DNA of 38,714 nt, taken from Thiotrichaceae bacterium (lineage in GTDB: Bacteria > Pseudomonadota > Gammaproteobacteria > Thiotrichales > Thiotrichaceae). A model generated the notes under the pieces. The model made no database searches. It was not told where the DNA came from and worked only from the letters and a program-made list of their open reading frames with translations. Below, piece after piece: positions 36,922 to 38,714 of this stretch. Location: NCBI GenBank assembly GCA_023144895.1, contig JAGLEV010000025.1:1-38714 (forward strand), given 5' to 3'. Position 1 is the stretch's first letter. Each line of letters starts with the position of its first letter. Position numbers and translations under genes: made by a program.

Positions 36922-37698
36922 ATGGCTGAGTTTAGATTACCTGCAAACTCTATTGTTAAAAAAGGGGAGGCTTATAGTGACCCTAATGCTAAATACCCCC
37001 GTAAAATGGTTATCTATCGCTATGACCCTGAAACGACAGATAACCCACGTTTAGATAGCTATGAAATTGATTTAGACCATTGTGGTCCGATGGTGTTAGA
37101 TGCCATCTTGATGGTAAAAAATGAGATGGATAGCACTATCGCAATACGTCGCTCTTGTCGGGAAGGAATTTGTGGTTCTTGTGCGGTTAATATTAATGGT
37201 AAAAATACCTTGGCATGTACTCAGTCGATTGCTGATATTAAAGGGGATATAGAAGTTTATCCTCTGCCACATCAAAATGTTATTAAAGACTTAGTGACTG
37301 ATTTACAAAATTTCTATGCTCAATATGCCAGTATTGAGCCGTGGATGAAAGTAGATTCTGCTTTACCTGCGGATCGTGAATATAGCCAATCTATTGAAGA
37401 TCGTAGCAAGCTGGATGGTTTATACGAATGTGTATTATGTGCTTGCTGTTCCACATCATGCCCTAGTTATTGGTGGAATAGTGATCGTTTTCTTGGCCCT
37501 GCAGCCTTGCTTAATGCTTATCGCTGGATAGTCGATTCACGAGATGAGGCAACAGGAGAGCGCCTTGATGCGATTGAAGATGCTTTTAAGGTCTACCGTT
37601 GTCATACGATTATGAATTGTACTGATGCTTGTCCTAAGGGTTTAAATCCTGCTAAGGCAATTGCTGGTATTAAGGCACTAATGGTTAAGCGACGTTAG
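36922..37698 (+). CDS. sdhB: Succinate dehydrogenase iron-sulfur subunit
   Basis: Carries electrons from FAD to quinone. 258 residues starting [10 protein letters not shown] at ATG 36922, 2 nt after sdhA; an ATG at 36883 lies inside sdhA and is rejected. The [2Fe-2S] ligands are Cys79, 84, 87 and 99 in CREGICGSC and LAC. The [4Fe-4S]/[3Fe-4S] ligands are Cys170, 173, 176 and 180 in [11 protein letters not shown], then Cys227, 233 and 237 in [14 protein letters not shown]. All cluster cysteines are present. The start has no strong ribosome site; coupling to sdhA is likely. Last gene of the operon; the next DNA is cassette-like. Confidence 0.97.
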
Positions 37699-37976
37699 TT
37701 TTTTAGTCTTTTATTTTATCTTTTAAACTAAGGTATTCAGAGAAGGGCCAAAATGATTGAATGACGATAAAATCATTGAGTTATGTGACCTTCGGTTATC
37801 AAAAGGTTATAGCAAGAAGAGGGTGTTTAGTTTTCACCTCTCAATGATAAAGTACTCAACACTAGCAAAGTATTTTTAATCCCTGAATCTCAACACTAAG
37901 AGAGTCAACAGCAGCATCTCATTTTTAAAGTGACAGGACTTTGAAAACCACAGCTCTAAATAATGACAGAGAAAGG
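37699..37976. other. Gene-free spacer between sdhB and the cassette region
   Basis: A T-rich stretch follows sdhB. TTAGTTT and AAACTAA arms frame it, and a weak AATGATT/AATCATT hairpin lies at 37752-37777. A GTGACC-TTC-GGTTAT hairpin (G-T pairs) is near 37785. No convincing open frame. The end of the sdh transcript probably lies here. It may also be the distal edge of the integron array. Confidence 0.5.
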
Positions 37977-38075
37977 AACTAACGCCCAAATCACTTGACA
38001 TAAAAAGAGGCGGAAATTTTGCGATAGCAAAAATTTGTGACGCTTTTTACGGTAAAGTGGATTTGATTGTTATAC
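37977..38075 (-). repeat. Integron attC-like recombination site (99 bp)
   Basis: Read on the minus strand it begins GTATAAC AATCAAATCCACTT and ends AAGTGATTTGGGC GTTAGTT. The outer cores share TAAC/GTTA, like inverse and simple attC cores. Left arm CAAATCCACTT and right arm AAGTGATTTG pair except for one unpaired C, an extrahelical base as in attC sites. Further in, TAAAAAG pairs with CTTTTTA and AAATTTTTGC with GCAAAATTT around a TATC loop. It starts 5 nt after the stop of the cassette gene. The imperfect inverted repeat is typical of attC. Cores deviate slightly from GTTRRRY. Confidence 0.75.
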
Positions 38076-38080
38076 GCTTT

Positions 38081-38482
38081 TTACTGCCACGTATATTTAA
38101 TTGGGTTTGATGCCCCTTTTTTCCTAAACTCATCAGGTATTCTCTTACCTATATACATCTGTTGAATACTTTCACTCGCTTTAATTCCATTGAAACCAAA
38201 CCTACCCTTATCTGATTCCCCTATTTCTCTTCCTGGAAAATTTTCTGCTGTTGCCTCTAACCATGTGTTGGCAATGAAAGCACCAACAATTACCCCCTGA
38301 ACTGTTGGAAGAATCACTTCTGCTTGTTCGGCCTTTTCTCTATTGATACGCCAAGCAAACCTAGTTGCTTCATATAATGAAGCACCCAGAGCACTTTTAT
38401 TTACAATAATAAGTAATACGCGATGCTGATCAAATGTAGCAAAAACTTCTGATGGAAATGAATCTTGTTTATTATCTGTCAT
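38081..38482 (-). CDS. Integron cassette protein, unknown function
   Basis: 133 residues from ATG 38482 (AAGGG 5 nt upstream; a longer frame from 38545 would start inside the attC site and is rejected). Soluble, no signal. A notable block is ASLYEATRFAWRINREKAEQ, then VILPTVQGVIVGAFIANTW, then RFGFNGIKASE and a tail with IGKRIPDEFRKKGASNPI. This pattern reminds me of a small PUA/EVE-like family found in accessory and restriction-related genes ('xARxxWxxN..A..G.vv..f....W...RfgF'), but I cannot name it with certainty. It lies within one cassette of 521 bp (37983-38503) between two attC-like sites, stop and start close to the cores as usual in cassettes. Confidence 0.6.
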   Translation of the reverse strand: MTDNKQDSFPSEVFATFDQHRVLLIIVNKSALGASLYEATRFAWRINREKAEQAEVILPTVQGVIVGAFIANTWLEATAENFPGREIGESDKGRFGFNGIKASESIQQMYIGKRIPDEFRKKGASNPIKYTWQ

Positions 38483-38497
38483 TGAACCCTTTATTGC

Positions 38498-38576
38498 GTA
38501 TAACGCCCGCTTGTGTTGCTGGCGATTGAAACTACAAGATTTCAATTAAACACCAAACTAACCAAGCAGTCAACCC
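38498..38576 (-). repeat. Second integron attC-like site (about 79 bp)
   Basis: On the minus strand it ends GCGGGC GTTATAC GC (core GTTATAC, 38504-38498) just before the cassette ATG. It begins near GGTTGACTGCTTGG about 7 nt after the stop of the upstream partial gene. GCTTGG...TTTGGTG on the left pairs imperfectly with CGCCAGCAACACAAGC on the right, and the centre is ATTGAAA / TTTCAAT. The size and position agree with an attC. The inner core on the far side (GGTTGAC) is a poor match. Confidence 0.6.
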
Positions 38577-38582
38577 TAAGAA

Positions 38583-38714
38583 TTACCGCTGAGTAAGCCA
38601 GTCCACACGAAGCTCTTGGTAGTGGCATTTATTTAGAAAGGGATTATTCATACTCTCAATAGGTAGCAAAACTACAAGAGTAAAATATGCTACGGACTCT
38701 GTTAACCGAAACTG
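38583..38714 (-). CDS. Partial cassette gene, C-terminus only
   Basis: An open frame of 43 codons enters from the right edge of the window and stops at TAA 38583-38585, 7 nt before the attC-like site. The readable end contains YFTLVVLLPIESMNNPFLN and a final QELRVDWLTQR. I do not recognise a family. Its position relative to the attC mirrors that of the complete cassette gene next to it. The N-terminal part lies outside the window. Confidence 0.4.
   Translation of the reverse strand, partial: QFRLTESVAYFTLVVLLPIESMNNPFLNKCHYQELRVDWLTQR

Follow-up and report, generated by a model that had tools for sequence, protein, structure and literature searches.

The window analysed here is the whole of contig C22, 38,714 nucleotides of the 2.64-Mb, 103-contig assembly of a Thiotrichaceae bacterium, and it stops where the contig stops, at position 38714. 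The features near this end are as follows.

36922 to 37698, plus strand: sdhB, the chromosomal neighbour of the array end, with Pfam Fer2_3 and 4Fe-4S domains
37861 to 37983, minus strand: tail after the last R' core, with an 87% copy at the start of contig C57
37977 to 38075, minus strand: attC site belonging to the last cassette, with R'' GTATAAC at 38069-38075 and R' GTTAGTT at 37977-37983; identified by covariance models and single-stranded DNA folding
37983 to 38503, minus strand: one-gene integron cassette that measures 521 bp, beginning with TTATAC and closing with the G of GTTAGTT; delimited by sequence
38081 to 38482, minus strand: cassette gene of 133 aa, the CMoRE/PD-T4-3 modification-sensing domain without the GIY-YIG nuclease
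38444 to 38458, minus strand: codons for FPSEV, a residual N-terminal motif of CMoRE; the presumed deletion joint follows at once
38498 to 38575, minus strand: putative attC site belonging to the preceding cassette, with R'' GGTTGAC and R' GTTATAC; its left half is degenerate, its right half clear
38583 to 38714, minus strand: 3' end of an ORF from the preceding cassette, truncated where the contig stops

The inner site is a 99-nt imperfect inverted repeat located 5 nt past the stop codon of the 133-aa minus-strand ORF, and its arms pair with one base left unpaired. The bottom strand of the site, which is the plus strand of the window, folded at −19.5 kcal/mol compared with −8.35 ± 2.15 for shuffled sequences (z = −5.19), and none of 200 shuffles was as good. 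The top strand folded more weakly (−13.1, z = −2.51), with 5 of 200 shuffles as good. The covariance-model search for attC sites that the first-pass annotation had proposed was run over the contig with two models, neither containing any site from the window. For model R1, 11 attC sites were taken from class 1 arrays and the arrays of relatives, 4 of them shortened to the arms. Model R2 was built from 33 attC sites found elsewhere by R1 and is not independent of it. Both models ranked the inner site first: R1, applied unfiltered, at 20.3 bits (E = 0.0063, next best 11.2 bits) and R2 at 27.9 bits (E = 0.00028, next best 11.3 bits), where the E-values are rough according to a warning of the tool. 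With R1, six attC sites in the array of one genome of the same family scored between 13.9 and 27.5 bits, so 20.3 bits is a normal score there. Rfam yielded no match above gathering at this site; a sub-threshold rimP match overlaps it (23.8 bits against a gathering threshold of 47, E = 0.47). The first-pass annotation had described this 99-bp repeat, GTATAAC...GTTAGTT with a single unpaired base, as attC-like, and sequence, fold and both models agree. Positions 37977 to 38075 on the minus strand are well supported as an attC site.

For the second attC-like site that had been claimed farther out, the right half stood and the remainder did not. The right half, GCGGGCGTTATAC, is attC-like; R'' and L'' are degenerate, neither R1 nor R2 reported 38498 to 38575 at E ≤ 10, and the fold was weak (z between −1.2 and −1.4). 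Its arm-pairing score of 15.2 is no more than chance gives, being equaled or exceeded by 7 others among the 234 GTTRNNY sites of the window. Arm pairing was dropped as a sole test for attC sites on this account. The inner attC is among those seven with a score of 15.8 and is unexceptional by pairing alone.

The cassette of 521 bp predicted between the cores was recovered (38503 to 37983). Its 5' TTATAC, taken with the G, complements all 7 positions of R'' in the cassette's own attC, which is the expectation for a circularized cassette. The 43 aa available from the ORF of the previous cassette gave no Pfam match.

One attC site supported by the covariance models lies on C22 before the contig ends, and further traces of an integron were found on other contigs of the assembly. 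The first bases of contig C57 are precisely GTTAGTT, and a tail of ∼122 bp there matches the DNA after the inner attC at 87% identity, so two contig ends share one tail. Contig C76 ends with the 57-aa C terminus of a tyrosine recombinase. The best NCBIfam match of this fragment is the integron integrase model TIGR02249, with 85.2 bits and an alignment that reaches the last model position (XerD, 62.6 bits); the score falls short of the cut-off of 265 for whole proteins, as it should for a fragment. Over 53 aa, the fragment shares 85% identity with IntI from G002, which belongs to the same genus. No N-terminal counterpart was found among the matches listed, where those on C16 and C66 lay far below the cut-off. 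Contig C38 starts with an attC-like site (20.2 bits with R1 and 22.9 bits with R2; E = 0.45 and 0.26 for the genome). In this stretch (L169:61-421), ∼100 nt separate the site from a match to group II introns (RF02001, 118 bits); read by eye, the 5' end of the intron meets the attC-like site. attC sites serve as insertion targets for class C group II introns. Two whole-genome searches with the covariance models scored 150 of 436 and 150 of 252 candidates; C38 was the sole contig listed, and the attC of the window itself did not appear, so these searches are no evidence that attC sites are absent.

The covariance-model result, the tail shared with C57, and the IntI fragment on C76 bear out the earlier reading of this locus, with weaker support from the attC-like site on C38, and the end of C22 is supported as the end of an integron array or CALIN. 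The unexceptional arm pairing and the failure of the outer site with the covariance models would also fit chance inverted repeats with no integron at all. We consider this extremely improbable, as it is largely contradicted by R1 and R2, both built without window sequence, and also by the IntI fragment, the matching end of C57, and homologs of the cassette gene that abut attC sites elsewhere.

The position of the array end was compared with related genomes. An SdhE-like ORF was recognized by eye downstream of sdhB in all four relatives of the genus with DNA there, and Pfam Sdh5 was confirmed for one of the four; in G002, the fifth relative, no match to sdhB came within the limit applied. In the source genome the Sdh5 match lies inside contig C6 (23273-23440 of 26018). 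With sdhB beside the array end and Sdh5 on C6, the array end stands where the sdhB-sdhE pair of the relatives is parted. A 138-bp tail query found no full copy in 38 relatives; the single match among them was a 22-base stretch in G004, by eye within coding sequence. The sdhE gene was also considered as a marker of the other end of the array and was rejected, the match lying in the interior of C6. In the 3.2-kb stretch of C6 around it, nothing beyond 12-16 bases was similar to the tails.

The cassette gene, left unnamed by the sequence-only annotation, has a Shine-Dalgarno-like AAAGGG just 5' of it (by eye). Its product matched no Pfam family, and a match to NCBIfam at E = 0.0071 was far under the cut-off. 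A phmmer search against the PDB sequences gave two matches, both to E. coli CMoRE (E = 4.9e-32 and 1.8e-31), which span positions 138-259 of the 262-residue chain; identity with the CMoRE sensing domain is 44-46%. The PADLOC PD-T4-3 profile matched with 2.2e-47 over positions 134-254 of 256, and phrog_5356 with 2.4e-33 over 130-252 of 255. The AlphaFold model of the cassette protein (pLDDT 81.3) aligned with CMoRE chains at Z 14.8-15.6, the highest value being that for 9u75. The cassette gene is the C-terminal modification-sensing domain of CMoRE/PD-T4-3. The GIY-YIG nuclease domain (GIYxY-YIG) is not present in the 133-aa ORF, and the cassette start at 38503 leaves no space for it there.

Structural alignment was performed on the candidates proposed by Foldseek itself, and among the 50 matches listed, entries with ASCH, YTH, and EVE-HNH (VcaM4I) titles, along with a few other EVE-, YTH-, or ASCH-like proteins, followed below CMoRE at Z 3.8-4.9. 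ASCH, YTH, and EVE domains are classed together as PUA-like readers. The best Foldseek E-value outside CMoRE was 0.018, for YTHDF2. Compared with the PUA-like readers, the sensor has Z ≤ 4.9 at 3-16% identity, below the level where a common arrangement can be excluded. The modeled fold hints that the sensor may be a diverged PUA-like reader, with Z values under 8 being no proof. According to the available parts of the 2026 CMoRE paper, searches by sequence and by structure found no homologues of the sensing domain (PMC12923530).

As described in those parts, CMoRE/PD-T4-3 is a GIY-YIG type IV restriction endonuclease that cuts hydroxymethylcytosine phage DNA and protects E. coli against T2, T4, and T6, and Tyr-127 (Y127) in its linker contacts 5hmC through its main-chain oxygen in the crystal (PMC12923530). 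Nuclease-bearing homologs start with an F-P-x-E-V-like motif, ∼10 residues before YVYRLIDP. The cassette protein starts with MTDNKQDSFPSEV and is followed by the sensor at once. Its N terminus was scored with a profile of the starts of 10 homologs, with 136 ORF starts and 20,000 shuffles as controls. The score of 16.5 was reached by 1 of the 136 control ORF starts and by none of the 20,000 shuffles; the lone control had the identical score and was taken to be the ORF of the window itself, which was part of the control set. The stretch with Y127 is lost in the cassette protein. Among 22 homologs examined for this residue, the joint was found by pattern in 17, of which 16 have the tyrosine and one (L080) a phenylalanine. 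In the five with no pattern match, inspection by eye found the tyrosine in L075, L082, and L083 and not in L079 and L086; Y127 is not universal. The simplest account would be that the nuclease was lost through an in-frame internal deletion. The cassette ORF is intact, and the sensor has kept 27 of the 27 columns that are invariant in 11 homologs, all with a complete nuclease except L075, which has part of it. There is thus no sign of decay, a point against a non-functional relic; a recent deletion would look alike.

The deletion is known from one assembly and was seen in no relative; a sensor match was present in 3 of 63 genomes of the order, the source genome included. An artefact, in which the assembly collapsed short reads from a complete CMoRE cassette and thereby created the deletion, would fit this singularity and also the fact that C22, C57, and C76 all end in or beside integron sequence, the array breaking the assembly anyway. 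Against such a collapse, the reading frame is kept across the joint, which is ∼260 bp away from the contig end; we regard the artefact as quite improbable.

Besides the window, 23 homologous cellular loci were collected (11, plus 4 from 398 genomes, 6 from 369, and 2 from 63; the samples overlap). GIY-YIG and sensor are joined in one frame in 16 of the 23, where the nuclease motif was recognized by eye and the Pfam test covers L064 and L072. In four cases this gene abuts an attC site: L069 (Marinomonas, 40.7 bits) and L087 (35.5 bits), and by eye L071 (Thioalkalivibrio) and L072 (Thiopseudomonas), the latter two in stretches with further attC sites found by covariance model. No attC site was found with R2 (E ≤ 1, default filters) in 14 stretches, namely the other 12 of the 16, L068, and L170; L070 has one R1 match (22.6 bits) >3 kb from the gene. 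Two versions are broken, L083 having no N terminus and L084 being frameshifted. The remaining five loci differ. In L077 (1327-1815 of this locus; contig C12 of G287), a diverged sensor stands alone as an ORF of 125-129 aa whose start immediately follows a weak attC-like site (13.5 and 15.2 bits, E = 0.11 and 0.31). L085 (G474:C150) holds a sensor remnant that by eye is joined to an attC-like repeat, of which the right half is present, and an attC site of 28.4 bits comes after it. In L068 (2860-4053 of this locus; JAJDYX010000003.1), from a Latescibacterota metagenome-assembled genome, the sensor (PADLOC PD-T4-3, 4.2e-42) is combined with an HSDR_N domain (Pfam, 1.7e-7); judged from its domains, this could be a differently built modification-dependent nuclease. 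In L170, near a contig edge, the sensor is joined to what by eye is an IstB-like fragment, and the L073 locus is cut by a contig edge. L075, on the Picosynechococcus plasmid pAQ7 (3743-4333), is another shortened form, starting inside the nuclease domain, and it directly adjoins an IS4-like transposase gene.

Sensor matches were also present in 16 of 50,697 phage records, the two examined carrying CDSs of 254 and 248 aa, and in 18 of 72,556 plasmids. From viral contigs, 79 loci were obtained from the best 80 of 87 relatives. The nuclease string VYRLIDPR occurs in 79 of the 80 sensor ORFs of this best set, and 58 are of one length. On both counts, the viral ORFs say little on stand-alone forms.

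These relatives bear on whether the protein might be functional without a nuclease. Such a reader would bind 5hm-dNTPs or the modified cytosine of phage DNA; it might keep the phage from replicating or being transcribed, bring in a separate nuclease, or modulate another system. The full conservation of the 27 invariant columns and the good fold would fit such a reader, as would the diverged stand-alone sensor L077 after its weak attC-like site (13.5 bits, E = 0.11) and the fusion to an HSDR_N-type nuclease in Latescibacterota, which marks the module as portable. Against these stand the loss of the linker segment with Y127, for which the main-chain contact to 5hmC was reported, and the 211 bp beyond the cassette, in which no partner gene is recognizable. 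Moreover, L077 is the only clear stand-alone form among the 23 other cellular loci. A functional reader is possible, if rather unlikely.

We consider it probable that the locus is the attI-distal end of an array beside sdhB, with the CMoRE sensor as last cassette, its nuclease deleted and the product probably non-restricting. According to this reading, a chromosomal integron array would adjoin sdhB with the end farthest from attI, or a CALIN that lacks an integrase would lie there. The bottom strand of the inner attC is predicted to fold into the type of hairpin recombined by integron integrases, and IntI would have moved the cassette by such recombination. An in-frame deletion would then have removed the nuclease and kept FPSEV and the sensor, so that what remains is presumably a modified-base reader fold without a nuclease. 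With no nuclease domain, the protein should not cut DNA. A defence cassette minus its nuclease, at the far end of the array, would no longer restrict phage. Cassettes at the far end of an array are less likely to be expressed, as stated in the accessible parts of PMC9024848. Most likely, the 133-aa protein no longer restricts phage. The locus is a real array end of known kind, and the truncated defence gene is its unusual part.

Two contexts now show the sensor without GIY-YIG, namely the integron cassette described here and, in diverged form, a second genome where it follows an attC-like site. A nuclease domain of another type carries it as well, and the proteins nearest to it in structure after CMoRE look PUA-like. 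CMoRE genes are shown in integron cassettes, and versions of the reader result that can be tested separately. A wider proposal would make the CMoRE sensor a portable PUA-like reader that is spread by integrons and other elements in three forms, with a GIY-YIG nuclease, with an HSDR_N-type nuclease, and alone, where the nuclease-less cassettes read phage DNA modification and leave it uncut. We hold this to be speculative and unlikely to apply in full.

Several known systems resemble the locus. As in the chromosomal integron arrays and CALINs described in the available parts of PMC9024848, an attC site follows a short ORF, the cassette measures 521 bp, and an IntI fragment is present elsewhere in the assembly; in contrast to them, one attC site is supported by the covariance models and the IntI fragment is on a separate contig. 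A GIY-YIG cassette gene, orf6, has been printed for a class 4-like integron of Aeromonas (PMC10609294); the likeness is a GIY-YIG gene in a cassette, and the passages of that paper at hand draw no link to CMoRE. A literature search lacking most subscription papers found no paper that brings PD-T4-3 and integrons together. Defence cassettes in integrons are the subject of works in Science (2025) and Nature Microbiology (2025) referenced in the accessible part of PMC12444791. The present cassette is like these in carrying a gene of an anti-phage family, with the catalytic half missing here. Compared with CMoRE as presented in the accessible parts of PMC12923530, the cassette product aligns over the C-terminal sensing domain and differs in being integron-borne and in having neither the GIY-YIG nuclease nor the Y127 linker.
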